Source: a virus
Virus record (IMG/VR): IMGVR_UViG_3300047994_000626
Coordinates: 1-27,786 of that record
Length of the DNA: 27,786 nt
Strand: one strand, 5' to 3'
The stretch's first letter is position 1. Each line of letters begins with the position of its first letter. The notes under the pieces were generated by a model. That model did no database searches. It was given only the letters and a program-made list of their open reading frames with translations, and was not told the DNA's origin. Below, piece by piece: positions 4,701-27,786 of this stretch. The translations under genes and the position numbers were made by a program.

Positions 4701-6610
4701 GCAAGGCAGGCGGGAATGAAATTATCGCTGTTGAGCTGGCTGACGCTGGAAAGCGCGCCGAAACTCTGTGTCAAATCCACGGACAGGGTATTGACGGTGT
4801 CGGGGTCCGACCCTGTCGCCAGCGTGGCGGTCAGCACACCCTGGGTGGCGGCGCGATCGATGTTTCCAAGCGGCTGATAATCGACATTGTCGAGCGAAAT
4901 CAGAACCTGACAGCCGCCCCAATTCGGGTTGGCGCCGGAGACGCCGATCACGATCTGCGGCGTGGCTTCCGAATTCGCCGACAGATAGGCCGGGCCGGGT
5001 TCGAAGATGACCGGCATGTTGACGGACCCCGGCGAAACCCGGTAATCCGCGATGTAACCCGTGCCTTGATTCAGGTTATATTCCGCCGTCGATCCCAGGC
5101 TGACCGGGTATTCCTCGGCGATGACGGTGATCGTGCCGTCGTCGTTCTCGGTGGTTTCCAGAATGCGGATAGCCTGCGACGACAGGCCGAGTCCGGAATC
5201 CGTTAGCGTATCGAGGTCCATCGGATCGAACAGGCAGTACCGGCCATCGAGCCCGAAGGTGTAGGTGTTGAGGATATATTCCTTTTGCAGCAGCAGCTGC
5301 GCCGAGGTATTCGCCGCGTTCCCGTCGCAGAAGAGATGCGCCTGCCTGCTCGGATCGGCCCGCCGCCCATAAACGTCGATCAGGCCCTGATCGCTGACCT
5401 CGGCGATCGAGGGCGCGTATTGGTTGGAGCGGTCGAGATATTCGAGTTTAATGTCGTTGATCTGGTCGGAAATGCGTGTGCGCTTCAGCAGGACCGGATC
5501 GTCGTTCGACGATCCGCCGGCATAGCCCGACACGAAATCGTCATCGCCGAGATTGAACCCGGCTTGCGAGGGCGGCGTATAGCTGTAACCGTTGCCGCTG
5601 ACGGCGACGCTGCCGCGCGGCACCATCGTCAGGATGCCGCAGGACCAGACCACCTCGGAATAGGTATAGGTCGCAATATCGTCGATCAGCGACGATGTCT
5701 GGGTCTGCTCTGCATAGACCGGCGAAATCCACAGTCCCGATGCCAGACAGAAGTTCTGATAGTTCGAGAGAGTGCCGGTCGAGACGTAGTTGATTTGAAC
5801 GAACGCGCCTGAATCAGCAGCATTGAAGGTGTAGACGCCGGTCGCGGCGTTGAAGGCATATTGCGACGGCCCCGGCGCACCGGAAACGCAGGTAAACGGA
5901 ACGCCCGAGCTGTCCTCGACATCGAGGTTGTAATTGAACGCGGCGTGGTTACCGACAGTGATCGTGTGGGGCGAATCCGGGATCGTATAGTCTTCGCTGT
6001 TGTTGACGACGCTGCCGATCCGCGCCGCCGGGAAGCCCGCCCCGTATTGCGGATTCGACAGCAGATCGACCACGACCTGGCTGGGATCGGCGTCGGCGCC
6101 GTTGGGCGCGGTGGCGTAGAGCCGGCCGTAAATCTCGAAATTGTAGCTCGGCACCGTCGCCGAGCTGGAGAGGTTCATCAGACCGAATGCGGCATAACAG
6201 ATGCCGCTATAGGGCGCGGCCTGATCAGGATGATTGGCGGTCAGATACGACCAGGGCGACTGGCCCAGCACGCCGGTGAAGAACGAAAAGCCGGCGGTTG
6301 AAGACGGCTGCGCGGTCTGATTGACCCAGGTCGTGCTGGTGTTGACGATCGGCCCTTCGCAAATCGCGCCCGCGACGGCGGCGGTGTAGGTGTAGGTGTA
6401 AGATCCGCCACCTCCCGCTTTGCCGCTTTTGCCACCGTTCGACGACGATTTGATCGCCTTGAAATCGGTGTAATAGGTCAGGTTCATAGCGATGCGCGCC
6501 GCGCCGTACAGGATCGGCACCGGCAGCCCGTAGCTCGACGTCTGAACCTGGATCCCGGCCAGCGCGACCGGCTGTGTCGTCTTTGCGCCACCCCCCAGCA
6601 TTCCGCTCAT
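1739..6610 (-). CDS. Tail tip / host-specificity protein (GTA gp15-like)
   Basis: This 1623-aa protein corresponds in position and layout to the GTA gp15 megatron and lambda gpJ-like central tail-tip proteins. The N-terminus (MSGMLGGG) and the following VPILYG segment lead into a Gly/Ser-Tyr-Thr-rich stretch (residues 59-77) and a baseplate-hub region (about 80-560) with a DPMDL-T-D motif typical of the phage tail protein 3 domain. Two fibronectin III-like domains follow (about 785-975). Next come two LYR-GAW modules, a decapeptide-repeat shaft and a C-terminal beta-rich domain that probably contacts the host. The ATG has a good ribosome site (GAGGTG). The gene lies downstream of the NlpC/P60 gene as in GTAs but is separated from it by a toxin-antitoxin-like pair. 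Confidence 0.9.
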   Translation of the reverse strand: MSGMLGGGAKTTQPVALAGIQVQTSSYGLPVPILYGAARIAMNLTYYTDFKAIKSSSNGGKSGKAGGGGSYTYTYTAAVAGAICEGPIVNTSTTWVNQTAQPSSTAGFSFFTGVLGQSPWSYLTANHPDQAAPYSGICYAAFGLMNLSSSATVPSYNFEIYGRLYATAPNGADADPSQVVVDLLSNPQYGAGFPAARIGSVVNNSEDYTIPDSPHTITVGNHAAFNYNLDVEDSSGVPFTCVSGAPGPSQYAFNAATGVYTFNAADSGAFVQINYVSTGTLSNYQNFCLASGLWISPVYAEQTQTSSLIDDIATYTYSEVVWSCGILTMVPRGSVAVSGNGYSYTPPSQAGFNLGDDDFVSGYAGGSSNDDPVLLKRTRISDQINDIKLEYLDRSNQYAPSIAEVSDQGLIDVYGRRADPSRQAHLFCDGNAANTSAQLLLQKEYILNTYTFGLDGRYCLFDPMDLDTLTDSGLGLSSQAIRILETTENDDGTITVIAEEYPVSLGSTAEYNLNQGTGYIADYRVSPGSVNMPVIFEPGPAYLSANSEATPQIVIGVSGANPNWGGCQVLISLDNVDYQPLGNIDRAATQGVLTATLATGSDPDTVNTLSVDLTQSFGALSSVSQLNSDNFIPACLAVVQNADGSDAELISFEQATLTAPYNYALGKSGGTAGRLRRGVYSTPIAGHAIGSQFCLLDDNVFTFDLPIAPVSYVGKTLYLKFLSINIYGEGAETAADVAPYIYDPTGIAAFVAPPSGVTISSGIAEQPDGTVQPFMQISWDASPDPVFDRYEVQWRTHTGPGPWLDQFVAANTTSLTIAPVAPVTAFDAQVRAVRSTSNTGPFFSAWAQDLNVLTVFKTTPPPAPTGLNVAGGYRQVTVSWTPVTSESDIAFYVVYYNTVNNLATAAVGGQGTLSVTIPNLALNTLYYVWVKTVDTSGNFSATALGPGEATTLGVESSDITGQIVEAQIAANSITAANLISGLNLVQVVTSIGSASSATGNVAYESSTGTLYRWNGSAWISSISAADIPAASLDITKFASGIAPVRIVSSLPGTATEGDTAVLTTNGKLYRYHAGAWTVATDGADILANSITTGSIAAGAVNASQIAAGAVTASKLYVGDTTSLILDPNFADPTVWTITTNGTTTPGYQSGISTEAQMGLIKGVVWSLSQFSTVTHFNYTIQSVLISCDGNTQYRQRALIRSFGANKNFYLWTGYYDNTQTYITATAQSFDPSSYVDPYGVSVTAASGCSAEWISTSPANAAYVICLFFVTNDGPTPLSTAGSGYWEMGNPRFERVTTGTLIADGAITTGKIAANAVTAAQIAAGTITASQIATGTLTAAQIAAGGITGTNIAGGTITGSNIAALTITAANISAGTITGDKITGNFFQGYSFTATSGSGSDLVQLYGGVGTSGGLNYGPYIRACDASGATRFVAGQWGSQYGLFVWNSSGVEILSASDLGVNVVGTSNIAANAATETNTGTYGSYARTIDNNTPGDGVNHFPAGTTQYAALAAVGETLVAGGSLQIIITIQGFLAAGLYGGDAYMIVTRDGADTGWTVLRSGSSTAADGSVTLVFTDTTATTSAGYHVYQLEFVLTVPSGPTTPLKQALVGVTSMSIVANVFKR
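2459..2698 (-). repeat. Eight tandem 30-bp repeats encoding a decapeptide shaft
   Basis: Inside the tail-tip gene eight consecutive 10-residue units follow the pattern (A/T)-(I/V/L)-T-x-x-x-I-x-x-(G/N), for example AVTAAQIAAG and TLTAAQIAAG. Related units recur at about 3260-3350. Such repeats form extended shafts in phage tip proteins. They are a coding repeat, not a CRISPR array. Confidence 0.85.
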
Positions 6611-8106: not shown

Positions 8107-9009
8107 TCATACCGCCGTCGTCGGCTGCGGGATGAAGGGAAAGCCGCGATAGCGGGCGGTATTGGAGAATTTCGGGCAACCGTTCGCGCCCGCCCAGCTT
8201 TTGTCGCAGCCCGGCGAAATGACGAATGTGTCGCCCGCCGCCGGCGCGGTGGAGAAAGGCGCAATGACCGTGATGCTGGCCGAGCTCGAGGAGTTGTAGA
8301 CCGATGCCTTGATCATGCGCTGTTGGCCGGCAAGCGCACCGGATGTGAAGCGGATCTTGCCGAGATTGTAATTGCCGTCCGGCATCCCGGTTGTGGTGAT
8401 GTTGAGGTTCATATCGGACGTGCCGGAGCCGCCGCCGATCGTACCCGTCGGCGAGCCGGAGAGGTCGACGCCGCACTGGGCGTCGCCAAGGGTATTAAGG
8501 CAGCCCGGCTGGTAAAGATTGCGCGGCATCTGCAAGTTCAACAGCTCGAGATGGCTGTTGACCATGAAGGTCGCGATCGTCCGGCTGGCGTCGATCTCGA
8601 CCACGCGGCCGACGAACAGGCGCACCGCGCCCGCCCGGGTGTCGCCATAGGTCGGCATGAACAGCCGCTCGAAGATCAGTTCCGACCCGTCGAACACGCC
8701 GCTATGCACCGCCGACAGGAACGGCGCGCCGAGGATTTGCGCCGCGCCGGGGATCACGTCGAATTGCAATGTATCGACGGCGGTCCCGACTTTTTGATGC
8801 ACCTTGGCCTTATTGTCCTGCCGATCGAAATACGGCCCGGTCGAACCGCCGCACGGATACAGCGCGCCGTTATAGGTGAGGTCTTGGTCGCCGCCGCAGT
8901 AACGCAGCACGTTCGACCCCAGATTGCCGCCGGAGAAGGTGTAGACATCGACCTGAAACCACTGGCGCGATTCCAGAATTTTGCGCAGCGCGGGCGATGT
9001 CGGCTTCAT
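8107..9009 (-). CDS. Tail hub protein, DUF2163/BR0599 (GTA gp13-like)
   Basis: This 300-aa protein has two recognisable parts: an N-terminal DUF2163-type region (residues 1-160, with YTFSGG and RYCGGDQDLTYNG) and a C-terminal BR0599-type region from about 165. Four cysteines (170, 179, 268, 278) cluster around MPRNLYQPGC, QCGVDL and the terminal SPGC and NGCPKF motifs. Related hub proteins, including lambda gpL, carry an iron-sulfur cluster, so these four residues are the obvious ligands here. That is inference. The protein ends in the family signature YRGFPFIPQ. Its ATG overlaps the previous small gene by ATGA, and it precedes NlpC/P60 as in GTAs. Confidence 0.85.
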   Translation of the reverse strand: MKPTSPALRKILESRQWFQVDVYTFSGGNLGSNVLRYCGGDQDLTYNGALYPCGGSTGPYFDRQDNKAKVHQKVGTAVDTLQFDVIPGAAQILGAPFLSAVHSGVFDGSELIFERLFMPTYGDTRAGAVRLFVGRVVEIDASRTIATFMVNSHLELLNLQMPRNLYQPGCLNTLGDAQCGVDLSGSPTGTIGGGSGTSDMNLNITTTGMPDGNYNLGKIRFTSGALAGQQRMIKASVYNSSSSASITVIAPFSTAPAAGDTFVISPGCDKSWAGANGCPKFSNTARYRGFPFIPQPTTAV

Positions 9010-9221
9010 CGCGGAGTCACGCCGATGACGGCGGCCTCGGCATCGATATTGCCCGCGAATTGGATGATTACGCCCTCGGCATAGGGGTCGCCATAGACCG
9101 CTTCGCCGGCAGCGTCCTCGATATCCAACAGGATCCGCGCTTGGGCCTTGTCGGGCGCGGCCACGCGGGCGCTCGCCAGACGATGCGCGGGGCGCGTCCA
9201 GATGACAGACCAGAGTTTCAT
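9006..9221 (-). CDS. Small protein between DUF2460 and DUF2163 genes
   Basis: This is a 71-aa hypothetical protein starting MKLWSVIWTRPAH at the ATG at 9221, which has AGGA spaced 6 nt away. A longer frame up to 9836 only shadows the DUF2460 gene. The protein has a short N-terminal strand and a segment DIEDAAGEAVYGDPYAEGVIIQF with the look of a small beta domain. It has no membrane helix. It is coupled to both neighbours: 20 nt after the DUF2460 stop and an ATGA overlap with the DUF2163 start. The position suggests a minor tail or assembly factor, but I do not recognise a family. Confidence 0.65.
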   Translation of the reverse strand: MKLWSVIWTRPAHRLASARVAAPDKAQARILLDIEDAAGEAVYGDPYAEGVIIQFAGNIDAEAAVIGVTPR

Positions 9222-17108: not shown

Positions 17109-17870
17109 ATGAAGTCAATAAGATACCCATCTCACCTTATGACAGATAGCATGAATAGCTTGGCGATGCCGATCGACACCGGATTACTGGTTTCCGAATT
17201 CGAGATGAACAACGCGGCGATGGCGGTCGAGACATCGGCGGTCATGGCGCGGTTCATTGGCGACAGACCGCTGCATGCGCGGTTCCTGAATACGCTGTCG
17301 ATGCTGGAGCATCTGGGCAGTCATAAGATCATGGCGACCCAGCGCGGCAAGACCATCGACCAGCCGACTCTGAAACATCTGGCCGACGAAACCCGCCACG
17401 CATTCTTCTTCAAGCGCCACGCCGACCGCGAAGCCGGCCGTACGATGGATTACGAGCACGACGACATGGTCGCCGCGTCGTCGGCCCGCCATTACTTCCA
17501 CCGGCTGGAAGCCGAAATCGCGCGCGTATTCGACGCCAACGCGCATCCGCGCGCGGTGTACCTTACCATGTCGATGATCGTCGAGTTCCGCGCGGTGTGG
17601 GGCTATCGCCTCTACCAGGCGGCGCTCGAAAACGCCGATCACCGGGTTTCGCTCAAAAGCCTATTGGCGGAAGAGCGCGGACATCTGACCGATATGGCGG
17701 AGCGGCTGGCCGGACTTTCCGAGCTCGATCATGCCCGGGTCCGGGAGCTTTGCGCGATCGAGCAGCAGCTGTACCGGAAGCTGCTGTCGGCCTTCGCCGG
17801 CAGCGTGGCGACCTTGCCGTTGAGCATCGATAACGCGGTGACGACGGTGGCGGGAATGGTGGCGGGTTAG
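17109..17870 (+). CDS. Ferritin-like diiron protein, function unknown
   Basis: This 253-aa protein shows the ligand set of four-helix diiron carboxylate proteins: Glu67 (MLEHLG), Glu94-x-x-His97 (DETRH), Glu159 (IVEFRAVWGY) and Glu189-x-x-His192 (EERGH). Spacing between the helices is that expected for the ferritin-like superfamily, which includes oxygenases such as MiaE and AurF. I cannot name the substrate. It is the only convincing plus-strand gene here. It sits between capsid and protease genes, faces two palindromes upstream and has its own perfect terminator at 17873-17904. There is no strong Shine-Dalgarno. ATG 17109 is used, with ATGs at 17139 and 17151 as alternatives. The base composition is normal for the window. 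It probably came from a host chromosome. Confidence 0.75.
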   Translation: MKSIRYPSHLMTDSMNSLAMPIDTGLLVSEFEMNNAAMAVETSAVMARFIGDRPLHARFLNTLSMLEHLGSHKIMATQRGKTIDQPTLKHLADETRHAFFFKRHADREAGRTMDYEHDDMVAASSARHYFHRLEAEIARVFDANAHPRAVYLTMSMIVEFRAVWGYRLYQAALENADHRVSLKSLLAEERGHLTDMAERLAGLSELDHARVRELCAIEQQLYRKLLSAFAGSVATLPLSIDNAVTTVAGMVAG

Positions 17871-17872
17871 AC

Positions 17873-17904
17873 GCACGCTTAACGAAATTAAGCGTGCTTA
17901 TTTT
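17873..17904 (+). terminator. Intrinsic terminator of the ferritin-like gene
   Basis: GCACGCTTAA and TTAAGCGTGC form a perfect 10-bp stem around CGAAA, followed by TTATTTT on the plus strand. On the minus strand no T run follows. It overlaps the stop codon of the convergent membrane-protein gene by its T run. Confidence 0.85.
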
Positions 17905-18266
17905 ACCCCAAGAGCCTTGTGAGACGAACTTTCAAATGCCGGATCGGTTAGAACCTTACGAGCGGCGTTCTCAACTCTATCTCCAATAGCCCACCAAAAA
18001 AGAGCAATTACGGCTGATAAAATTACACCGGCCACAATACTACCGGTTTTCACCCTGTCGATGGTGAGGACGGCAGTATCGAGTTTGCTTCCGAACTTCT
18101 CCTGAACCGATATGAGATGATCGATCTTCGTATTTAGCTTGCCGATCTCAACCAAGACGAAGCGTATATCGGAAGTAGGATATAAATCTTGCGGCGGCGG
18201 GACGCTCGCTACTTCGGTTGGCGGCCCGGCAGCTACTGATGGAGGGTTCTGGTTAGCCAACCGCAC
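17898..18266 (-). CDS. Coiled-coil single-pass membrane protein
   Basis: This is a 122-aa hypothetical protein. Residues 8-30 are proline-rich and disordered. Residues 33-72 form a likely coiled coil (VLVEIGKLNTKIDHLISVQEKF) and residues 74-93 a strong membrane helix ending LFWWAIGD. The C-terminal 30 residues are polar. The pattern is a cytosolic multimerising stalk with one helix and an outer tail, or the reverse. Its start overlaps the preceding 96-aa gene by 14 nt, so the two are co-translated. I do not recognise the family. It does not look like a structural phage protein, and the pair sits in the capsid-protease gap behind a large inverted repeat. Confidence 0.6.
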   Translation of the reverse strand: MRLANQNPPSVAAGPPTEVASVPPPQDLYPTSDIRFVLVEIGKLNTKIDHLISVQEKFGSKLDTAVLTIDRVKTGSIVAGVILSAVIALFWWAIGDRVENAARKVLTDPAFESSSHKALGVK

Positions 18267-18543
18267 GACTTTCTAATTTTACCTTTAGCCAATCCCATAC
18301 TGTTTGCGGAGCGCGTCCAAAATATGATGACGTCGCGAAAATAATTGCATTCCCAAGAGTCGGCAGACCTGGGTTTTTGGGATCATAAACTCCCAATTTC
18401 GCACTTAACTCTACGGCGGTTAGCGAACTTGAAACCAGCCACTGAGTTCCGCTGACCATATAATGGTCGTTAGGAAATGCGGTCTGAATCTGCTCGGCAA
18501 TTTTCGGGGTGTCCGCTGGTAAGAGCACTGCAAAAATCGTCAT
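18253..18543 (-). CDS. Small hypothetical protein, first gene of a two-gene cassette
   Basis: This 96-aa soluble protein begins MTIFAVLLPADTPKIAEQIQ. A compact alpha/beta layout is visible: an N-terminal strand and helix, YMVSGTQWLVSS (residues 28-39), a helix AVELSAKLGV and a conserved-looking end FGRAPQTVWDWLKVKLE. It has no signal peptide, membrane helix or recognisable catalytic motif. It is followed with 14-nt overlap by the coiled-coil membrane gene and preceded by a 37-bp imperfect inverted repeat, a probable operator. A cytosolic sensor or effector working with the membrane partner is a speculative reading. Confidence 0.6.
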   Translation of the reverse strand: MTIFAVLLPADTPKIAEQIQTAFPNDHYMVSGTQWLVSSSLTAVELSAKLGVYDPKNPGLPTLGNAIIFATSSYFGRAPQTVWDWLKVKLESRAVG

Positions 18544-18719: not shown

Positions 18720-19535
18720 CTACCCATTCGCCACTTTCTCGATCTGCGCCAGGGTCATCGGGCGGCGTAGCGCGCGTTTGGCGAGTTCGACCGGGTCGCG
18801 GGAGATTTCTTCGCCGGGGTGGAGGCCGCCGAGGCGGTCGGCGGATTTTTCGATGGGGATGGCGCGCAGCGCGGCGCGGCGGTCGGCGGGCATGCGGGAT
18901 AGGGCTTTGCGAAGGGCGTCGCGTTCGGCGATGAGGCCGGCGATCTTGTCGGTCATGGCGTCGCCGCCGGCGCCGGTATCGTTATCGTCATCATCGTCGG
19001 GCGCGCAGCCGTCGCAGGTTGCGCCCAGCGCGACCGCCTGGTCATGGATCTCCTGGATCATCCGCAGGTCGGCGGCGGAGTTGCGCGCGCCCGCTTTACG
19101 GAAACCATCCTTGTCGTCGGCCTTATACATGGTGAACACCGCCTCGGGATTGGCGGGGCGATCGACGAGGCTGATTTCGGAGAGTTTGACGCCGGTGATG
19201 ACGTGTTTTTGGACATGGTCGCGCGACACGACGCGGCCGCCGATCGAGAAGCCTTTATAGACGCCCTGCACCACCTTTTCCCAGGCGGTCGGATCGACGA
19301 TCTTGGCGGCCAGATGCAGACCCGTCTCGTCCAGCCCGGCCTCGGTCGCGACGCCCACCGCCGAAGGCTGATGCATCTCGCGGATATTGCCGAAGCGCAT
19401 GTAGTCGGGCAGCGCCGCCTCGAGCGCTTCGCGCTTCACGATCTCGCCCTGGCTGTCGAGCGCCTCGGTCGAGGCATAGCCGAACACCATCTGTTCGGCC
19501 TCGTCGATCTTGGTGATTTTGGCGTAGAATTTCAT
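18720..19535 (-). CDS. Prohead protease (XkdF-like) with scaffold-like tail
   Basis: This 271-aa protein carries an XkdF/prohead protease domain (residues 1-140) that trims capsid precursors in the prohead. FGYASTEALDSQGEIV opens the fold. The catalytic candidates are His55 (REMHQPSAVG) and Ser97 (KGFSIGG). The segment LSEISLVDRPANPEA is the usual closing signature. The C-terminal 130 residues are helical and charged with a CDGC motif (174-177) and a run of aspartates (180-184), a layout typical of fused scaffolds. Its ATG overlaps the portal stop by ATGA. Unusually, the capsid gene is 2.5 kb downstream and not adjacent. Confidence 0.85.
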   Translation of the reverse strand: MKFYAKITKIDEAEQMVFGYASTEALDSQGEIVKREALEAALPDYMRFGNIREMHQPSAVGVATEAGLDETGLHLAAKIVDPTAWEKVVQGVYKGFSIGGRVVSRDHVQKHVITGVKLSEISLVDRPANPEAVFTMYKADDKDGFRKAGARNSAADLRMIQEIHDQAVALGATCDGCAPDDDDDNDTGAGGDAMTDKIAGLIAERDALRKALSRMPADRRAALRAIPIEKSADRLGGLHPGEEISRDPVELAKRALRRPMTLAQIEKVANG

Positions 19536-20968
19536 GGGTTGGTCTCCTGGAGTTGTGCGCGTGACGCCCCCTCACCCCCGCCCTCTCCCCGCTGGGGCGA
19601 GGGAGTCAGAACACTGGCCAGGGTCCCGGCGCCGGCGGCGGTGTAGATGAGTGGGGTGTCGCCGCCGGCGATGGGGTCTTCGCCGGATTCGGCGCGGGCT
19701 TCGTTGATGGTTTTCAGGCCGGATTTGAGTTTGATGTCGGTGATTTGGGCCTGTTTCAACGGGTCGGCGGATTTTTCGTCGATCCATTCGAATTCCAGGT
19801 CGCTGTAACCAAAGTCATCCTCGATCACCTGATCGACCAGGCATTTGATCCACAGCATGATCGGGCCGAGGCCCTCGCCCAGCGCCATTTCCTGGGCGTT
19901 GTCGGCGGTGGCGCGGTTCATCTGGCGGGTGAAGGGCGCGGGCGATGTCGAGAAGGCGTAGCACACCACCCGCGCCAGCCATTCGTCGAAATCGTCCTTC
20001 AGAGGCGGCTCGCGCATAGCCTGGTAACGGAAATCGGCCGGAACAAACCGGGCGTGGCGGCGCTCGGCCGTGTTGCCGGCCATGATAGTGTCCCAATATT
20101 CCTGGAACTGCGCGATCTGATCCATCGTCCAGCCCTGCGGCACCGAGAGGATCGCCTCAGGCATGTTCCCTTCGGTGAAATATTGCAGCTGCGCCAGCTG
20201 GCGGCGCAACGCGATGTTGACGGTGGTGATGATCTGTTCGACCGGCGAAAAGCCGTAGACCTTGGCGGTGCGCGGGTTGCGCGGCAAATAGAGCAGTTCG
20301 TCGCGGGCGAAATCGGCCTTCGGGATGCCATGCAGCACCTGCTGATAGGCGGGATCGGGCGGCAGAGGACTGCGTCCGTTATCGTCGATCAGCACCTTGA
20401 TCGTGGCGCCGTCCACCGGCTCCAGCGCCAGCAACGCGCCGCCGACGCTGCGCGCCTTGTAGAGCGTCGCGGCGTCGATCACGAACAAATCCTCCAGCAG
20501 CATGCGCAGCCAGCTGCCCCAGCGGTGCAGCCCGTCGGGCCTGCGGAAGAAGGCCTCGAGTCCCGCGACGCGCGGATCGGTCGCGGCCGTATAGGGGGCG
20601 GTGGGGCGGTGCGCGCCCGGGGGTAGGCCGGTTTTAGGGCGGATGTTCCAGCGCAGGCGCTCGACCTGATCCTTGCGGGTTTCGATCACCAGGCGCAGCA
20701 CGTCGTAGCCGTCGGCCAAAGCCCGCATCTGGGCGAAGGAGACGCCCTCCTCGCCGCGCGGCTGATACCGGATGTTGAGGCCGGACATGTAATCGAACCG
20801 GCGCGGTTCGGCGAAGGCCGGTGCGGCGGGTTCGATCGGCTGCAGCGGCCCGAACCAGTTGTCGGGCGAGACGCCGCGGATCGCATAGCGCAGACCCGCG
20901 GCCAAGCGGCCGATGAAGCCGGGCTGGCCCGCGGTCGTCAGCGGGGTCAGTTTACCATCAGGCGGCAT
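19532..20968 (-). CDS. Portal protein
   Basis: This 478-aa portal forms the dodecameric DNA gate at one head vertex. The start at 20968 (MPPDGKLTPL) is preferred. The longer frame to 21049 runs through the upstream gene. Portal features are clear: LRLVIETRKDQVERLRWNIRP, RRPDGLHRWGSWLRMLLEDLFVIDAATLYK, VLHGIPKADFARDELLYLPRNPR, GFSPVEQIITTVNIALRRQLAQLQYF, and the C-terminal LKSGLKTINEARAESGEDPI, typical of phage portal families. An odd tail (SPQRGEGGGEG) near the C-terminus comes from a palindromic repeat element at 19567-19605. It overlaps the upstream gene by 11 nt and the protease gene by ATGA. Confidence 0.9.
   Translation of the reverse strand: MPPDGKLTPLTTAGQPGFIGRLAAGLRYAIRGVSPDNWFGPLQPIEPAAPAFAEPRRFDYMSGLNIRYQPRGEEGVSFAQMRALADGYDVLRLVIETRKDQVERLRWNIRPKTGLPPGAHRPTAPYTAATDPRVAGLEAFFRRPDGLHRWGSWLRMLLEDLFVIDAATLYKARSVGGALLALEPVDGATIKVLIDDNGRSPLPPDPAYQQVLHGIPKADFARDELLYLPRNPRTAKVYGFSPVEQIITTVNIALRRQLAQLQYFTEGNMPEAILSVPQGWTMDQIAQFQEYWDTIMAGNTAERRHARFVPADFRYQAMREPPLKDDFDEWLARVVCYAFSTSPAPFTRQMNRATADNAQEMALGEGLGPIMLWIKCLVDQVIEDDFGYSDLEFEWIDEKSADPLKQAQITDIKLKSGLKTINEARAESGEDPIAGGDTPLIYTAAGAGTLASVLTPSPQRGEGGGEGASRAQLQETNP
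19567..19605. repeat. GC-rich palindromic repeat inside the portal gene
   Basis: The plus strand reads CCCTCACCCCCGCCCTCTCC then CCGCTGGGGCGAGGGAG. The inner arms CTCCCC/GGGGCGAG give a hairpin. It resembles dispersed short palindromic elements seen in many Gram-negative genomes, often translated as a SPQRGEGGGEG-type peptide. It keeps the portal frame open, so the C-terminal residues are likely added. Confidence 0.65.
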
Positions 20969-21416
20969 CGGGCAACCCCACGGCGTTGAAGAAGGAATGG
21001 ATCGCGATGCGCCGGCCGTTGGCGGTGCCGCAACTGAAGCCGAGCGCATACCGCCCGGCCGGAGCTTGTCCGATCGCCTGGGCGGCGACGGTGCCGATCA
21101 AAGCGGGCGCCCCGTCCAGCGCGGCAGCATAATCCGAAACCGGCGTATCGACCGGGAAGAACAGGACTTCCAAACTGCCGGGATCGAGGCTGTCGCCGGC
21201 ATCCAACGCCCAGCCGAGATCGATGCCGAATACATCGTCGGCCAAAACCGACAGCGACGGGAAATCGCGCCCGGCATAGCCCGAAATCGCGGCGGGGCGC
21301 AGGGTGCGGCGGAGATTGAGAGCCAGGGTACTCACAGCGCCCCCCGCCAAACCGTCGAGCAGAAAAGACACGGCCCCGCCCTGGCCCAACCCCAATGCGA
21401 TCGGCCAACCGGACAT
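20958..21416 (-). CDS. Hypothetical phage protein upstream of portal
   Basis: This 152-aa protein starts at the ATG at 21416 (MSGWPIALGL), where AGGAGA lies 7 nt upstream. The longer frame to 21467 lacks such a site. The sequence is alanine- and glycine-rich with short strands (GGAVSFLLDGLAG, GRDFPSLSVLADDVFGIDLG, LEVLFFPVDTPVSDYAAALDG). No membrane helix or signal peptide is evident. It is translationally linked to the portal by an 11-nt overlap. Location between the fibre-like genes and portal suggests a virion component, but I do not recognise a family. Confidence 0.6.
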   Translation of the reverse strand: MSGWPIALGLGQGGAVSFLLDGLAGGAVSTLALNLRRTLRPAAISGYAGRDFPSLSVLADDVFGIDLGWALDAGDSLDPGSLEVLFFPVDTPVSDYAAALDGAPALIGTVAAQAIGQAPAGRYALGFSCGTANGRRIAIHSFFNAVGLPDAA

Positions 21417-21643: not shown

Positions 21644-22222
21644 TTAAGCCGCGCGCTTGCGCGAGGTAGGGGCGACGGCGTCGTCGAGGGTGAAGCTCAT
21701 AGCGGCGGTCGTCGTGTCGAGCTTGCGCGCGGTCAGGGTGGTTCCCGATTGATCGACATTGGTCAGCACCGCCAGCATGCCGTAGAGCAGCTGCGCCAGG
21801 GTGCCGGGCTGTCCGTTGGCGGCATAGCTTTCGGTCAGGGTATTGACCAAAATACTCAGCGCGGCGCCCGCCGTTCCGGCCGCGGCATGGCCGGCCAGGC
21901 CGGCATCGAGCACATCGCCGGCGACCGCGGCGATGTCGGGCGCCTGCAATTGCAGCCCCAAAGTCGCGGTTCCGTCGATATAGCGATCGCCGGCGGCGCT
22001 CAGACCCGCCCCGGCATCGACCTGCCAGATCGCCTCGCCGCCGGCCGCGGGGTCGTAGGTGAATTTATAGGCGCCCTGCCCGACTTCCGAGATCGCCGGC
22101 GGCGTGACGTCGGAATTGTCGGAAAGCTTCTTGAAAATCACGAAGCCCGGCGTCAACCCGGTAACCCGAGCCCCGCCGGCCGTGCTGTCGCGCACCACAA
22201 AACTAAACGGAATAGCGGTCAT
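21644..22222 (-). CDS. Probable virion-associated fibre/decoration protein
   Basis: This 192-aa protein starts MTAIPFSFVVRDSTAG at the ATG at 22222, which has AAGGG upstream and overlaps the previous gene by ATGA. Residues 1-80 look like a small beta domain found at the base of phage fibres (VTGLTPGFVIFKKLSDNSDV, AYKFTYDPAAGGEAIWQVDAGAG, DRYIDG). The middle (about 90-150) is alanine- and glycine-rich. The C-terminus SFTLDDAVAPTSRKRAA matches the short fTLdda-PTsR end seen in related virion proteins. Coupling to the Ig/SGNH protein upstream suggests the two work together on the particle surface. The family was not confirmed. Confidence 0.6.
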   Translation of the reverse strand: MTAIPFSFVVRDSTAGGARVTGLTPGFVIFKKLSDNSDVTPPAISEVGQGAYKFTYDPAAGGEAIWQVDAGAGLSAAGDRYIDGTATLGLQLQAPDIAAVAGDVLDAGLAGHAAAGTAGAALSILVNTLTESYAANGQPGTLAQLLYGMLAVLTNVDQSGTTLTARKLDTTTAAMSFTLDDAVAPTSRKRAA

Positions 22223-24717
22223 GATCGCGCCCTTTTGAGTTGGTGGGATGGTGTGGTGGAGGTGATGGTGGTGGATATGAGCGCAAGAATGATCTGGATT
22301 GACCAATTACCTGCAGTGGCTTGGTCGCCCACATCAATAGGGTGCAGGTAATCCTGTGAGCGTTGCAGAAACGGCCTGCGCTGAAAATAATTATATGGTC
22401 CGAGTGGATTCTTATGGAAAATCGTCGTTCCGTTTGCAAGAGCGGTCATCGCCGCATCGTAGGCAATCAACCGTCCGGAATTCTGAACACTGTATGATCC
22501 CGAAGACTTACCTTGGAACATAGGCCCAACAAGGTGAATCGACTTGAGTGTCGGAATATTGGCGAACAAATAGCTAATGATCGTCTGATAGTTCGACTGG
22601 TAGGTTGACGGCGGCGTAGCAACGCCCGTCTGAGCGTCGTTCGCTCCAAGGTTGCTGACGATCCGCGTAACGCCCGCCGCCGCCCCTACTGTTGCCGCGT
22701 TTGCAAGATAGGACCCTGCCGGAAGCCAGTCGCTCGTTGCGGTTCCCGAGACGGCAAAGTCTAAGGAAAAACTAAGACCGCCTCCAGTCGCCGTCGTATT
22801 CGTTCCGCCGTACCACTCTTTCGAGGGCATCCCGAAATTAAGCTGGTCGATCATCGCCGCAAATGGGCTTTCGATGGTCGAGTACGATCCCGCTTCGATG
22901 GAATCACCGATACCAGCGACGATTTCGAGGTTTGTCGCCGCCATTGTGGTTATGGCGATTTGCGTCGAGTAGACGGTCGTACTCGACACCGTGTCGGTAT
23001 AAGCCTGAGTATAGAAATACCCGGTCCCCGGTGTCCGTCCGGTGTCGATATAGCTTTCCGCCGTCGCGCCACTGATCGCGGAGCCAAGCGACCCAGAGGT
23101 CGTTGACCGATACCATTGAAATGTGAAGCTGCCGCTACCGCCCGTCGCTTCTGTCGAAGAAAGCTGAACCGTCTGGGCGCCGACATAGGTCGCATAAGCG
23201 ATGCCCGCACCGCTTGCCGTATTGACGACACACGAAGCGTTATGGGAGGCGGAGAATGCGCCTGTACCTGTCGCCGTCAGCGTCTTCGTGGTGGCACCCG
23301 CGCCGCTCGCTGGGGTATAGGTGAACGTCTGAGGCGTCCCGGCATTCGCCGAGGTAAACGTCAATGAGCTTGGTGTAAACGCGCCGCCACCGCTCGCGTC
23401 GGAAAGCGTAATCGTCTCGTTGGTTGCCAGAGTACCGTTTATCGCGACGGTATAATTTCCGGTCACCACGTTGGGGACAGTCGTTTGCGACGAAGGACTC
23501 AACGTAAAGTTTGTAGCCGCCGTATTAGTTACTGCGCAGGAGGCGGTATGTGTCGCGCTAAAGCCGCCCGATGCCGTCGCGGTCAAGGTCAGCGTTTCGG
23601 TGGGATCGCTTGCCGAGGGCGTGTAAGTGAAGGTCTGCGGCGTCGCCGTAGTGAACGTCAGGCTTAACGGTATGAATGTGCCGCCATTGGCGCCATCCGA
23701 AAGAGCGATAGCGGTTGACGAGGATGGGACGCCGTTGGGTGTAATGGTGTAATTGCCGGTTGGAACGCCGACGTTCGTGCTTTGGCTTGATGGCGTGAAC
23801 GTGAAGTCTGTCGCGGAACCAGCCGAGGTCGTGAAAGAGAACTCGTTCGACCAGACGATCGCGCCTGTGCTATCTGTTGCGGTCTGGATATTGTAATAGG
23901 TCGTCGATGAAGCGAGGCCGGTATAATTGGCTGTCAACCCCGTTGCCCCACTCACAAGATTGGATGTCTGCGGAACGAAATTGACACTGTTCGCTCGGTA
24001 TAACTGATAGGTGTATGGGCCTGTGCCTCCGGAAGCGCCCGTGCTTGTAATAGTCGCGGAATTGCCGGTTATGCTCGACGCGCTGAGAGTGCCGGCCGCC
24101 AGACTCGAGTTTCCGAAAAGTTGTACGTTATCGACGGCATATCCGGTGCCGGTTCCGGCTTGGTAAAACCCAGCATAGCCGGCGGCAGTGACCGAAGAAT
24201 CAGTTTCGTTGACCTGATAAGACCCTGGCTCGGTCGTTCCTGCCGTCCAGACCTTCGCACTGATTGTGGTTCCGATCGCTGCGACTTTGATGCTGATCGC
24301 CACTCCAGCCAAATATGCATAACCCGAGTCTATAACGCCGCCAATAGTCGAGAGCGAGCCGCTTACGCATTTACATAGCTGAAACCGTACCGTTCCGCCT
24401 AAAGGCTCCAACAACCAAACGTAATAGTTTTGCGCGCCAGAGTCGCTTCGTAAAATCGGCTGTATGCCGTTAGGGTTTACAAGCGATTTCGTAACGTAGG
24501 TAAGCTCCATATCTGCGGTGGCGGGAATTGAAACTCCGCTGCCGCCCAACAAAAGGACCTTGCCGCCATCTGTTTGTGAGGGATTTTGAAAATCGTTCGG
24601 CGCCGAATAAGCCGAACCATCGGCGACAACGCCCCATGTTCCTGAAATCACTGAGAACCAGGCTGGCAGCGCGCCCGCTGTATCAGCGTCGAAATCATCG
24701 GCGAAGAATAAATTCAC
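22219..24717 (-). CDS. Ig-like repeat protein with C-terminal SGNH esterase domain
   Basis: This 832-aa protein probably binds and deacetylates a surface polysaccharide. The GTG start at 24717 has AAGGAG upstream. Residues 1-200 resemble a concanavalin-like domain (DNVQL end). An Ig/FN3-like domain follows (about 205-300), then two Ig-like copies (302-400, 401-500), an Ig/FN3 module (503-592), and an SGNH hydrolase domain (597-815) with block I GIGDSI (Ser606), block III GAND (691-694) and block V DYLHP (Asp789, His792). All catalytic residues are present. It has no membrane helix or signal peptide. It is downstream of an acyltransferase and coupled to the fibre-like gene (ATGA). A tail-fibre or spike enzyme is likely. 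A secreted lysogen enzyme is less so. Confidence 0.75.
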   Translation of the reverse strand: MNLFFADDFDADTAGALPAWFSVISGTWGVVADGSAYSAPNDFQNPSQTDGGKVLLLGGSGVSIPATADMELTYVTKSLVNPNGIQPILRSDSGAQNYYVWLLEPLGGTVRFQLCKCVSGSLSTIGGVIDSGYAYLAGVAISIKVAAIGTTISAKVWTAGTTEPGSYQVNETDSSVTAAGYAGFYQAGTGTGYAVDNVQLFGNSSLAAGTLSASSITGNSATITSTGASGGTGPYTYQLYRANSVNFVPQTSNLVSGATGLTANYTGLASSTTYYNIQTATDSTGAIVWSNEFSFTTSAGSATDFTFTPSSQSTNVGVPTGNYTITPNGVPSSSTAIALSDGANGGTFIPLSLTFTTATPQTFTYTPSASDPTETLTLTATASGGFSATHTASCAVTNTAATNFTLSPSSQTTVPNVVTGNYTVAINGTLATNETITLSDASGGGAFTPSSLTFTSANAGTPQTFTYTPASGAGATTKTLTATGTGAFSASHNASCVVNTASGAGIAYATYVGAQTVQLSSTEATGGSGSFTFQWYRSTTSGSLGSAISGATAESYIDTGRTPGTGYFYTQAYTDTVSSTTVYSTQIAITTMAATNLEIVAGIGDSIEAGSYSTIESPFAAMIDQLNFGMPSKEWYGGTNTTATGGGLSFSLDFAVSGTATSDWLPAGSYLANAATVGAAAGVTRIVSNLGANDAQTGVATPPSTYQSNYQTIISYLFANIPTLKSIHLVGPMFQGKSSGSYSVQNSGRLIAYDAAMTALANGTTIFHKNPLGPYNYFQRRPFLQRSQDYLHPIDVGDQATAGNWSIQIILALISTTITSTTPSHQLKRARS
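23218..23814 (-). repeat. Two tandem Ig-like repeats of about 99 codons
   Basis: Units encoding residues 302-400 and 401-500 of the SGNH protein share TDFTFTPSSQ/TNFTLSPSSQ, GNYT, ALSDGANGGTF/TLSDASGGGAF, PQTFTYTP and TASCAV/NASCVV. They are an internal duplication. Confidence 0.8.
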
Positions 24718-25018
24718 GATGTTCTCCTTGGGGCGCGAAATGCGTCAAACTCAGCGCTTAAGTCGATTTAGATCACTGAGACATAGCAAAAGGGCACGCA
24801 AATATCTTGGACAGATACGGTAATCGCCAATCATTGTTTAGTATTTTTTATCTGCTTTTATGGCGGCTTGATTACCATAGGAATTTGGCTGTTCTTTCAC
24901 AGACCATACAAACTTAGCGCGCGTGAGGCGATGTAGTGGGGTTTAATGACGTCGAAAGAGCGAAATCACTACGAAAATTGGACACACGAATGTTTGGTGA
25001 AGGTGTTCGTGCCAGTAC
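24718..25018. other. 301-bp gap between acyltransferase and SGNH genes
   Basis: No gene is supported here. The centre is AT-rich relative to its neighbours. It holds the ribosome site for the SGNH gene (AAGGAG) and the promoter candidate at 24801-24830. No intrinsic terminator was seen after the acyltransferase. Confidence 0.6.
24801..24830 (-). promoter_or_regulatory. Weak candidate promoter for the SGNH gene
   Basis: TTGGCG and GATATT on the minus strand are 18 bp apart, each matching four of six sigma-70 consensus positions, about 84 nt before the GTG start. Confidence 0.25.
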
Positions 25019-26038
25019 CTAAGCCACTCTAAAAAGTCGCCGCGACAATCTCACACCCGGTCGCTCGACGAATTTATAGGATGTCCAGGAAACCACTAGT
25101 ATAGCAGCGACCGAACCAAACCAATAAATTGGCAGCGGGTAAGCTGACTGCTCTGCAGCTTTTCTCGCGAGCAGTAAAACAGGGATCTGCACGAGATAGA
25201 CCGAATAGGACACCTTTCCCAGCCAGTGAAGCGGCGTAGCCGAAAGTATATGAGCGAAACGCCCACTGTTTTCTGAGAGCGATGCTATTAGACAAATCTG
25301 AACAGCGACTGACGCCAAGTCGCAATGCATTAAGACGGTAATCACCAGCACGATTGCCGACAGGAGAACCATCCGGTCTCGCGATAACCATTTGGGCAAC
25401 ACGCCGAACGCCAGTGAAACTCCAATCCCGAATTCGGCCAAACAGCGTGCCAGAGGAAGCCAACTATTTGCAAAAACGACATCCATCGACCATGCGTGTC
25501 GCCATGCCACTACAATTATCGCGCACCCGCAAACACAGGCCATTAAGGCTGCTGCTCTGCGCTTTCTTAGGCCGATAAATACGAACAACGGAAAGAGCAG
25601 ACTTGCAGCCCACTCAATACTAATTGACCAATCCGGTGGATTCAGAGTGGTCGATGATTCGTAAAATATGTTCCACCGGTGCAGCAGCGCTATTTCGCCG
25701 AAGATGTAGAACCACCATCGCAAAGGATCGCCCTCGCCTATCAAAATGGCAACACAACCAGCAAGCACAAACCAATGCAGAGGAAACAGACGTCCGACGC
25801 GCCGTCCAATGAAAACCAGATACACGCTAAAGTTGAAACAGCCTAAGAATTCCGGGCCATGTCTTCGACCCAAAATAAATCCGCTCAGTACGAAGAAGAA
25901 ATCTACCGCCAAATAGCCCCGGCTTATTACCGGAATTTGATCCCAACCTGACACCGGCGACCATTTGCCGAGGTGGAAGAGCAAAACCCACAGCGCGAAT
26001 ATCCCGCGCATCGCAGTCAGGGATTTGATTTCGGTCAT
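25019..26038 (-). CDS. Acyltransferase 3 family protein (OafA-like O-acetyltransferase)
   Basis: This 339-aa polytopic inner-membrane protein carries hallmark motifs of the Acyl_transf_3 family, which acetylates surface polysaccharides. The N-terminus ITSL-like SLTAMRGIFALWVLLFHL has the key Arg and His. It is followed by GYLAVDFFFVLSGFILGRR, RRVGRLFPLHWFVL and DWSISIEWAASLLFPLFV. About nine hydrophobic helices follow the usual spacing, and WLGKVSYSVYLVQIP near the C-terminus is also typical. The gene is AT-richer than neighbours, has no close coupling with TerL, and lies between packaging and portal genes, so it looks like acquired cargo. In phages such enzymes often change the O-antigen of the lysogen. 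That function is inferred here. Confidence 0.9.
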   Translation of the reverse strand: MTEIKSLTAMRGIFALWVLLFHLGKWSPVSGWDQIPVISRGYLAVDFFFVLSGFILGRRHGPEFLGCFNFSVYLVFIGRRVGRLFPLHWFVLAGCVAILIGEGDPLRWWFYIFGEIALLHRWNIFYESSTTLNPPDWSISIEWAASLLFPLFVFIGLRKRRAAALMACVCGCAIIVVAWRHAWSMDVVFANSWLPLARCLAEFGIGVSLAFGVLPKWLSRDRMVLLSAIVLVITVLMHCDLASVAVQICLIASLSENSGRFAHILSATPLHWLGKVSYSVYLVQIPVLLLARKAAEQSAYPLPIYWFGSVAAILVVSWTSYKFVERPGVRLSRRLFRVA

Positions 26039-26117: not shown

Positions 26118-27383
26118 TTACCCCATCCGTCCCGCGCGGTCGCGGTAGAAATCGAGCAGGCCGGTGTCGCTCGGTTGCAGTTGCAGTTCGGTCACGGCCC
26201 AGACCAGCGCATCGACGCGGTCGGGGGAGTTTTCGCCGGAGGTCGGGGACCAGTTGCACATCTGGTCCTCCAGGGTCGGGAAAGCGCCGGCATGTTTGAC
26301 GCGGTTTTGTTCGTAGAGGGCCGAGACGGGTTCGGCGCGGGTTCGCTTGCCTTTCGACGCGGTCACGCCCTTATAGGCGACGTTGGGATCGACGGTGCGC
26401 AGCATGATCTCGACCATATCGCCGCCGTTATTGGTCTCACCGACGATGCGGTCGGCCTTGTGATCGGCATAAAGATTGACGGCGCGGCGGCCCCATTCGT
26501 CCGGCGTGAAACGGCCCGAGGCGTCGGCCAGCACATAGACCAGCCCGTCGATGCCGAGGCCGGCGACCACAATGCCGGTTTCGTCCGAACCCGCGCCGGC
26601 GGTGACTGCGGGGTCGATGGCGACGACGACACGCCGCATCTCCGGCGCCCGCTCCGGGGCGACGCGGACGGATTCGATCCCGGCGCGGCTCCACAGCGCG
26701 CCGTCGGCCTGATCCAGCAGCTCGGCCTCAATCTCCTGCCGGCCGAGGCGGGTGCCTTCATATTTGGCGAGGATGACCGACATGAAGGACGGGGCGAGGT
26801 TTTCCTGGTTGGCGAAAGTCGAGCCGCGGGTCAGCACGGTGGTCGGCGCGGCCGCGAGATCGCGGATCAACCGCGTCGGCTTGGGCGTGGTGGTAACGAC
26901 CACGCGGGGGCGTTCGCCCAGGCGCAGACCGAACATCAGCATGTCCCAGGCATGGGAATACCGCCAGGACGACAGCTCGTCGCACCAGGCGAAATCATGC
27001 TGCGGCCCGCGCAAACGCTCGGGTTCGTCGGCGGAATAGCATTCGGCGACGGCGCCGTTGGGCCAGGTCAGCCGCCGCTTTGATGGCTCGTAGACCGGCT
27101 GGCACCAGGGCGGCGACACGGCCAGGATGCCGCTTTCGCCCTCAACCATCACGTTGCGCACATCGGCGGCGGTGGGCGCCACCAGGGCGATCCGCCGGGC
27201 GCGGCCGGCCTCAACCTCGCCGCCGACGGTTTGCGCGCCGGTGCGGGTTTTGCCGAAGCCGCGGCCGGCGAGCAACAGCCAGACCAGCCAGGTGTCGGAC
27301 TCGGGCGGCAACTGCTCGCGCCGGGCGCGCCATTTCGACCAGTTCCAGAACAGCCGCAGCTTGTCCTCATAAGTCGGGGCCAT
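26118..27383 (-). CDS. terL: Terminase large subunit
   Basis: This DNA-packaging motor is 421 aa from the preferred ATG at 27383 (MAPTYEDKLRLF). That start leaves only a 17-nt overlap with the upstream gene and coincides with the normal family start. ATGs at 27437 and 27467 would add up to 28 residues without a ribosome site. The ATPase part shows Walker A AGRGFGKT (Lys45), an adenine-binding Q-like EQLPPES, and Walker B FAWCDE (Asp135, Glu136). The C-terminal nuclease shows VVAIDPAVTAG, GETNNGGDM and SPDRVDAL, all RNase H-like metal ligands. It resembles the terminase 6 / GTA gp2 type. It is followed by inserted cargo, not by the portal. Confidence 0.95.
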   Translation of the reverse strand: MAPTYEDKLRLFWNWSKWRARREQLPPESDTWLVWLLLAGRGFGKTRTGAQTVGGEVEAGRARRIALVAPTAADVRNVMVEGESGILAVSPPWCQPVYEPSKRRLTWPNGAVAECYSADEPERLRGPQHDFAWCDELSSWRYSHAWDMLMFGLRLGERPRVVVTTTPKPTRLIRDLAAAPTTVLTRGSTFANQENLAPSFMSVILAKYEGTRLGRQEIEAELLDQADGALWSRAGIESVRVAPERAPEMRRVVVAIDPAVTAGAGSDETGIVVAGLGIDGLVYVLADASGRFTPDEWGRRAVNLYADHKADRIVGETNNGGDMVEIMLRTVDPNVAYKGVTASKGKRTRAEPVSALYEQNRVKHAGAFPTLEDQMCNWSPTSGENSPDRVDALVWAVTELQLQPSDTGLLDFYRDRAGRMG

Positions 27384-27786
27384 TCGGCGCACCGAGAGCA
27401 GGCGCTCGTTTTCGGGCTGCGATGCGATCAAGCTCATCGGTGATTCGACGTTCAAGTTCGGTCTCATCGGTGGGGCTATGGGCCATTGCGCCGGTCATGT
27501 CGAAATTTTTCCGCTCCCTGTCCATCAGCAGGCACACCACGCGGCAGACCGAGGCGAAACCGGCGATCAACCCGCCGGCGCCCAGAAGTCGGTCGAGGCT
27601 GTCGTCGTCCAGCGCGTCGATCATATCGCCCAGATGCCCGATCAGGCGCATGGCGGTGGCCCGCATGCCGGCGAGATCTTCAAGATGCACCGCGGCCAGG
27701 CCGTCGGCGCCGATCCAGCCGTGCTGTCGGCTCGACGCATCCGCTTGCGGCAGGACGGCGTGAGTCCGGTCGGTTGTGCCGCGCAT
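27367..27786 (-). CDS. Probable small terminase subunit, at window edge
   Basis: This is a 139-aa or longer protein whose reading frame reaches the window end, where an ATG happens to sit at 27786, so the true start may lie outside. Residues 28-100 are helical (LAAVHLEDLAGMRATAMRLIG, MIDALDDDSLDRLLGAGGLIAGF, SVCRVVCLLMDRERKNF). The C-terminal part is charged (ETELERRITDELDRIAAR), as expected for a small terminase oligomerisation and TerL-binding tail. It overlaps the TerL gene by 17 nt with the preferred TerL start. I do not see a clear DNA-binding motif. The assignment rests mainly on position upstream of TerL and helical composition. A packaging accessory protein is the alternative. Confidence 0.5.
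   Translation of the reverse strand: MRGTTDRTHAVLPQADASSRQHGWIGADGLAAVHLEDLAGMRATAMRLIGHLGDMIDALDDDSLDRLLGAGGLIAGFASVCRVVCLLMDRERKNFDMTGAMAHSPTDETELERRITDELDRIAARKRAPALGAPNGPDL

Follow-up and report, generated by a model that had tools for sequence, protein, structure and literature searches.

Why would a phage carry, side by side, one gene for an enzyme predicted to acetylate surface polysaccharide and another for an enzyme predicted to deacetylate it? The question is raised by a virus record of 27,786 bases, here called the window and analysed at its full length, whose structural genes are on the minus strand. The sequence-only reading had pointed to an acyltransferase gene (AT) beside a gene for a protein with an SGNH esterase triad, and both open reading frames are indeed intact, adjacent, on the same strand and located where it had put them. 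Our preferred reading, to which we give a probability of about 0.5, is that the phage is probably temperate and that the two genes form a cassette for receptor modification, which was inserted between the genes for the terminase large subunit (terL) and the portal.

The two genes and their products

The genes follow one another in the order small terminase-like ORF, terL, AT, SGNH protein, small protein, p152 and portal (Table 1), after which come the protease, the capsid, connector and tail genes, the hub (1623 aa) and a cell-wall hydrolase. The AT gene lies upstream of the SGNH gene with 300 bp between them, and no convincing sigma-70 promoter or terminator was found in this gap. The GC content is 0.51 in the AT gene (GC3 0.54) and 0.56 in the SGNH gene (GC3 0.61), against 0.66–0.67 (GC3 0.78–0.88) in the terL, portal, capsid, small protein and p152 genes of the window, with a GC3 of 0.83–0.88 in the first three of these. 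The low GC of the AT and SGNH genes would fit exchange of both.

Table 1. Features of the terL–portal interval in the window, listed in the order of the genes.
Feature	Position	Strand	Evidence or remarks
terL, terminase large subunit; border of the cassette	26118..27467	-	PF03237 E 6e-23, PF17289 E 2e-15
AT, AT3-only acyltransferase (Acyl_transf_3, OafA/Oac-like membrane part), 339 aa	25019..26038	-	PF01757, PHROG 3333
Intergenic gap between AT and SGNH genes	24718..25018	-	A+T-rich, GC 0.44
SGNH gene, 832 aa, start GTG	22219..24717	-	no N-terminal signal peptide or membrane segment
N-terminal ConA/CBM66-type carbohydrate-binding-like domain, residues 1–207	24097..24717	-	AlphaFold2, structure comparison
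Ig/FN3-like repeats, residues ~208–595	22933..24096	-	beta repeats in low-confidence model; orthologue profile matches
SGNH/GDSL esterase domain, residues ~596–815	22273..22932	-	PF13472, alignment A4
Basic C-terminal tail SHQLKRARS	22222..22248	-	occupies the place of the relatives' GYSRxRVxN tag
Small protein, from the SGNH stop codon	21644..22222	-	beta-sandwich N-terminus; C-terminus APTSRKRAA; alignment A5
p152, conserved 152-aa protein between cassette and portal	20958..21416	-	alignment A6
Portal; opposite border of the cassette	19532..20968	-	PF04860 E 6e-20; PHROG 2662 E 8e-82

The AT matches PF01757 over residues 5–320, that is over the whole domain (E 1e-18, 67.8 bits with a cut-off of 31), and PHROG 3333, 'O-acetyltransferase' (E 2e-37). 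The R-x10-H and RxxR motifs are both there, and a simple hydropathy count gives 9 hydrophobic segments, where about ten membrane helices are expected of the family. The description of this enzyme as OafA-type holds as regards the two family matches but not as regards its architecture, as the SGNH domain that is fused to the membrane part in OafA is absent and the protein is AT3-only. Sequence comparison supports an acyltransferase of the surface-polysaccharide kind, with acetyl transfer as its predicted activity.

In the neighbouring protein the catalytic blocks of an SGNH esterase are complete, as had been claimed, with S606 in GDSI, G658, N693 in GAND and the pair D789-x-x-H792. Across an alignment of 10 proteins (A4) the serine, aspartate and histidine are invariant, while N693 is replaced in L003 (GGAD). 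The domain scores 32.0 bits against PF13472 over residues 603–799, just below the cut-off of 32.9, which is passed by the orthologues L002 and L160 and by several relatives of class B (defined below). While a three-sequence profile found no match in the PDB, a ten-sequence profile gave a weak match to the acetyl esterase 5b5s/5b5l (E 1e-4). The window protein has neither a CE2_N module nor a PHROG match. Among 50,697 phage records there were no relatives of it, and none of the small protein or of p152.

The sequence-only reading had joined the esterase to Ig-like adhesion domains. This is broadly right for the central Ig/FN3-like repeats, where orthologues give Ig_3, SprB and Hoc-like profile matches, but the N-terminal ~207 residues appear to adopt a ConA/CBM66-type fold instead. 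The AlphaFold2 model has pLDDT values mostly of 70–90 in residues 1–207, and below 50 in places of the SGNH part. When residues 1–207 of the model were compared with known structures, the baseplate of mycobacteriophage Douge (8zdo_a) gave a VIA Z of 18.5 (rmsd 2.7, 183 aligned), followed by mouse galactocerebrosidase (Z 17.6), the receptor-binding domain of TM4 gp23 (9n6a, Z 17.5), the Douge central fibre (Z 17.4), CBM66 (Z 16) and legume lectins (Z about 14). The modelled domain would thus have the ConA-type fold that is common in carbohydrate-binding proteins, the fold alone being no proof of sugar binding. Taken as a whole, the SGNH protein resembles an esterase with a receptor-binding role, and deacetylation is its predicted activity.

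Elsewhere in the window, the hub gene (1739–6610, minus strand) encodes a 1623-aa tail-tip protein with Phage-tail_3, FN3 and Rcc01698_C domains and a C-terminal half with fibre-like repeats, which is related to its counterpart in the Rhodobacter gene transfer agent. On the opposite strand, within the head genes, lies a 253-aa gene (17109–17870, plus strand) without a Pfam or PHROG match. It is kept in several members of the clade of related records described below (96% in L002; 63–70% in L007, L009, L011, L013 and L156), and its Glu- and His-rich product has, by eye only, the look of a diiron or ferritin-like protein. Two small genes, the pair p96/p122 (96 and 122 aa), follow the protease gene in the window (17898–18543) and in L002, and in L009 (2595–3234) they stand between terL and the AT, so that the pair has moved within the head module.

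Conservation and turnover of the pair

The clade was sampled by a portal-protein search without selection for the gene pair, the portals of close relatives being 70–93% identical. The AT is beside the SGNH gene in all 10 clade records that reach upstream of the SGNH gene, namely the window, five found by the portal search (L007, L008, L009, L013 and L019) and four found through SGNH or AT proteins (L002, L003, L156 and L160); these are related metagenome fragments, not independent of one another. The records without an AT (L011, L014, L015 and shorter ones) end within or before the terL–portal interval. Among 29 more distant portal relatives (portal 46–57%) none has PF01757 or PF13472. At the outgroup loci terL and portal are within 300 bp of one another in 39 of 54 cases, the gap in the clade being 5.1–8.6 kb, and none of these loci has a window-like AT, SGNH protein, small protein or p152. 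Most simply, this would mean that an ancestor with adjacent terL and portal genes acquired the cassette between them and that its descendants have retained it. As all 10 testable clade records have the pair and none of the 29 distant ones does, a chance neighbourhood was rejected and the two genes can be treated as a conserved unit.

Both members of this unit are subject to turnover. The AT belongs to one group (AT1) in the window, L002, L003, L007, L008, L019 and L160, to a second (AT2) in L013, L156 and the second copy of L003, and to a third, AT3-like type in L009. AT1 is inverted in L019; among the AT2 genes, that of L013 is direct and those of L156 and L003 are inverted. In L156 a decayed remnant of an AT of another type lies on the opposite strand beside the intact AT. 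Mapped onto a tree built from terL, portal, protease and capsid, this distribution requires the AT to have been replaced or inverted no fewer than four times. The SGNH proteins fall into class A (window, L002, L003a, L156, L160 and L014) and class B (L007, L008, L009, L013, L019 and the second, separate SGNH gene of L003), and the catalytic domains of the two classes have been swapped, mostly behind a common N-terminal domain. In three of the six class B proteins (L007, L008 and L009) a CE2_N module, from carbohydrate esterase family 2, precedes the GDSL domain. Two AT genes and two SGNH genes are present in L003. Both kinds of gene have been exchanged and replaced without loss of either. No one-to-one matching of subtypes was seen, as AT1 occurs with classes A and B and so does AT2; this free combination means that no matched specificity is visible at that level.

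Two other gene arrangements were seen in these records. Upstream of the AT in L003 (1–1998) a small gene for a coiled-coil protein that ends in a membrane segment is present in at least four tandem copies, which have diverged, and no terL was found in this region. In L009 a pair that by eye looks like a toxin–antitoxin system (Phd/RelB-look, then RelE/ParE-like; 8539–9202) lies between the SGNH cassette and p152.

It could be argued that the terL–portal interval is a hot spot and nothing else, which has received a receptor-binding enzyme and an ordinary lysogenic-conversion moron with no linked function. Morons beside receptor-binding genes are common. One outgroup record, L047, has an O-antigen-ligase-like gene (3497–4816, plus strand; Wzy_C, 33 bits) in the same interval and no SGNH gene, which suggests that the site also takes up other surface-modification genes, and the ATs in either orientation and the mixed subtypes would suit such a site as well. 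Against this, a hot spot predicts clade members with one gene only, but all ten testable records have both despite several replacements of the AT, and unrelated phages also have AT and esterase genes side by side, at different places in their genomes. We therefore regard the hot spot as a somewhat unlikely account of the pair. A gene in the terL–portal interval of L053 had a tailspike-like look that neither Pfam nor PHROGs confirmed, and it was set aside.

The recurrence is clearest in the Arthrobacter temperate phages Hum25, Kukla and Faja, in which, as in the clade, an O-acetyltransferase is adjacent to esterases or hydrolases (one or two esterases), here at the end of the tail genes, between these and the integrase. 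Unlike the clade, these unrelated phages have a Gram-positive host, which for Hum25 and Kukla is Arthrobacter globiformis B-2979, and their AT and esterase genes are mostly convergent. A separate PF13472 match is present in five of 20 phage records that have an AT and lie outside the clade, and four of these (Hum25, Kukla, G833 and G834) have the SGNH gene adjoining the AT. A rough binomial estimate with 3 kb of ~45 kb as the neighbourhood puts this at ~1e-4, for a small sample that was gathered by AT similarity.

Location of the SGNH protein and life cycle

If the SGNH protein acts on the cell surface it has to get there. No signal peptide or N-terminal membrane segment was found in any SGNH orthologue of the clade, which argues against Sec export, so a lectin-esterase acting outside the cell would need delivery by the virion or by lysis. 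For the class B orthologue of L007 the match is to PHROG 7918, a family annotated 'neck passage structure protein' (E 5e-9), and lies in the CE2_N/SGNH part; for the class A orthologue of L003 it is to PHROG 25852, annotated 'virion structural protein' (E 1e-9), with further matches to Hoc-like head decorations. Most class A and class B proteins end in the tag GYSRxRVxN or something near it, the window, L002 and L156 ending in SHQLKRARS instead. The tag is kept in the stand-alone class B enzyme of L003, which has no N-terminal domain, and is absent from L008, where the C-terminus of the SGNH protein is fused to p152. The common tag and the L008 fusion point to attachment by the C-terminus near p152 and the portal, as a neck or head appendage. 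We infer that the protein is part of the virion, with the neck or head more likely than the tail tip. The claim that the virion carries the deacetylase thus gains indirect backing, from the missing signal peptide, the receptor-binding-domain fold, the virion PHROGs, the tag and the p152 fusion. The small protein encoded next to it was considered as BppU-like from its sequence; the resemblance to BppU N-terminal domains is weak and non-significant and no significant structure match was found, and this name was rejected as anything but a label.

These observations also bear on whether the SGNH protein might be a free enzyme, for example one released at lysis that strips acetyl groups and lets progeny escape debris or reach new cells. 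The position of its gene outside the tail module would agree with this, and in another phage, L172, the SGNH protein next to the AT starts with a signal-peptide-like sequence. The clade members, however, have no such signal, and the modelled phage receptor-binding-domain fold of the window protein, the matches of orthologues to virion families, the common C-terminal tag and the fusion to p152 all argue for a structural protein; we consider a free enzyme distinctly unlikely.

Highly improbable is a split O-acetyltransferase, in which the AT3 protein would pass acetyl through the membrane and the SGNH protein would transfer it, as in the fused OafA, OafB and OatA or in PatA/PatB: SGNH is the transfer part of AT3–SGNH enzymes and separate partners exist (PMC9558356), but the SGNH protein here has neither signal peptide nor membrane anchor to reach the periplasm, it contains Ig spacers as well as a CBM-like domain, the hydrolase module CE2_N occurs in some class B proteins, and AT3-only proteins such as Oac are, according to the same source, thought to be functional without an SGNH domain. 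The pair shares both kinds of domain with OafA, OafB and OatA, in which they are fused rather than separate, and unlike those acetyltransferases the window has an SGNH part without an export signal.

The sequence-only reading had placed the acyltransferase in a lysogen. An S24/HTH repressor lies beside terS in all four relatives whose record reaches there, which favours lysogeny indirectly, whereas no integrase (PF00589) was found in 12 fragmentary clade records; judged by these genes, a temperate life cycle is likely. The AT is co-directional with the late genes in most clade members, and in the window no separate promoter could be recognised for it. As to the host, portal relatives at ≤55% identity are found in genomes of Rhodospirillales and other proteobacteria. 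A clade-specific p152 profile, which recovers the known members, had no match in sets of 6, 395 and 385 genomes.

Possible function of the cassette

Several known systems share parts of this arrangement. Much as is predicted for the phage of the window, the temperate Shigella phage Sf6 combines an AT3-only O-antigen acetyltransferase with an O-antigen-active virion enzyme (PMC9558356, PMC8973906). Its Oac acetylates the O-antigen and excludes Sf6 (PMC9558356), the acetylation blocking superinfection (PMC9558356, PMC8973906). The virion enzyme of Sf6, its tailspike, however, is an endorhamnosidase and no esterase, which is hindered by the acetyl mark and does not remove it, and oac is placed beside the integrase gene by the title of a work cited in PMC8973906, whereas the AT of the window is between terL and portal. 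Closer to the predicted esterase are the SGNH tail fibres of Klebsiella prophages, which are active esterases (PMC13123978), and the receptor-binding esterases of G7C (gp63.1) and PP99 (gp55), which deacetylate their glycan (PMC13123978, PMC6989608). As would the window protein in its probable virion place, these act on an acetylated surface glycan; they differ in being tail fibres or spikes, and the available text of these sources describes no fixed neighbouring acetyltransferase gene. For the Klebsiella prophages an interplay of acetylation and deacetylation with prophage acetyltransferases was proposed in 2026 (PMC13123978). A neck location has a parallel in the collar whiskers of lactococcal 936 phages, a neck passage structure whose proteins combine collar domains of the BppU type with carbohydrate-binding modules that can be exchanged; some of these modules are similar to the carbohydrate esterase 2waa (PMC6669499). 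The match of the L007 orthologue to the neck-passage PHROG would link the clade to these proteins, though the window protein has no PHROG match, the 936 phages infect Gram-positive hosts and no acyltransferase partner is described in the available part of that account.

In the receptor-modification cassette that we favour, the SGNH protein would be a fibre attached to the neck or head and fixed by its C-terminus near p152 and the portal. Its CBM-like domain would bind surface polysaccharide and its SGNH domain would remove O-acetyl groups, so that the phage settles on an acetylated host. The AT, made in the infected or lysogenic cell, would move acetyl groups across the inner membrane onto the surface glycan and so change the receptor. 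A phage with a matching esterase could cope with the acetyl mark and rivals without an esterase could not. A more specific form of this proposal is that the AT writes a mark which the virion esterase erases, such that rivals are excluded while the phage's own progeny can still infect marked cells, and that an arms race between sister phages replaces both genes; this step we put forward tentatively, and on balance doubt.

Enzymatic receptor-binding proteins and O-acetylation by phages are already known, and a contest of acetylation and deacetylation has been proposed (PMC13123978). What appears new, and was not found in the searchable literature, is the constant side-by-side pairing, the replacement of both parts within one clade and the probable place at the neck or head. 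The physical linkage in every testable record, together with the replacement of each gene, makes the proposed interplay testable, and an AT3 gene next to an SGNH gene provides a simple genome signature for finding similar systems in other phages. The clade also suggests a neck or head position for a virion esterase in place of the tail tip. Should the two enzymes share a target position, only phages that lack the esterase would be stopped by the mark; should the positions differ, the AT would provide plain superinfection exclusion and the esterase would handle acetyl groups made by the host or by other prophages. The conserved pair suggests that the phages of this clade strip the coat of their host and also mark it anew.
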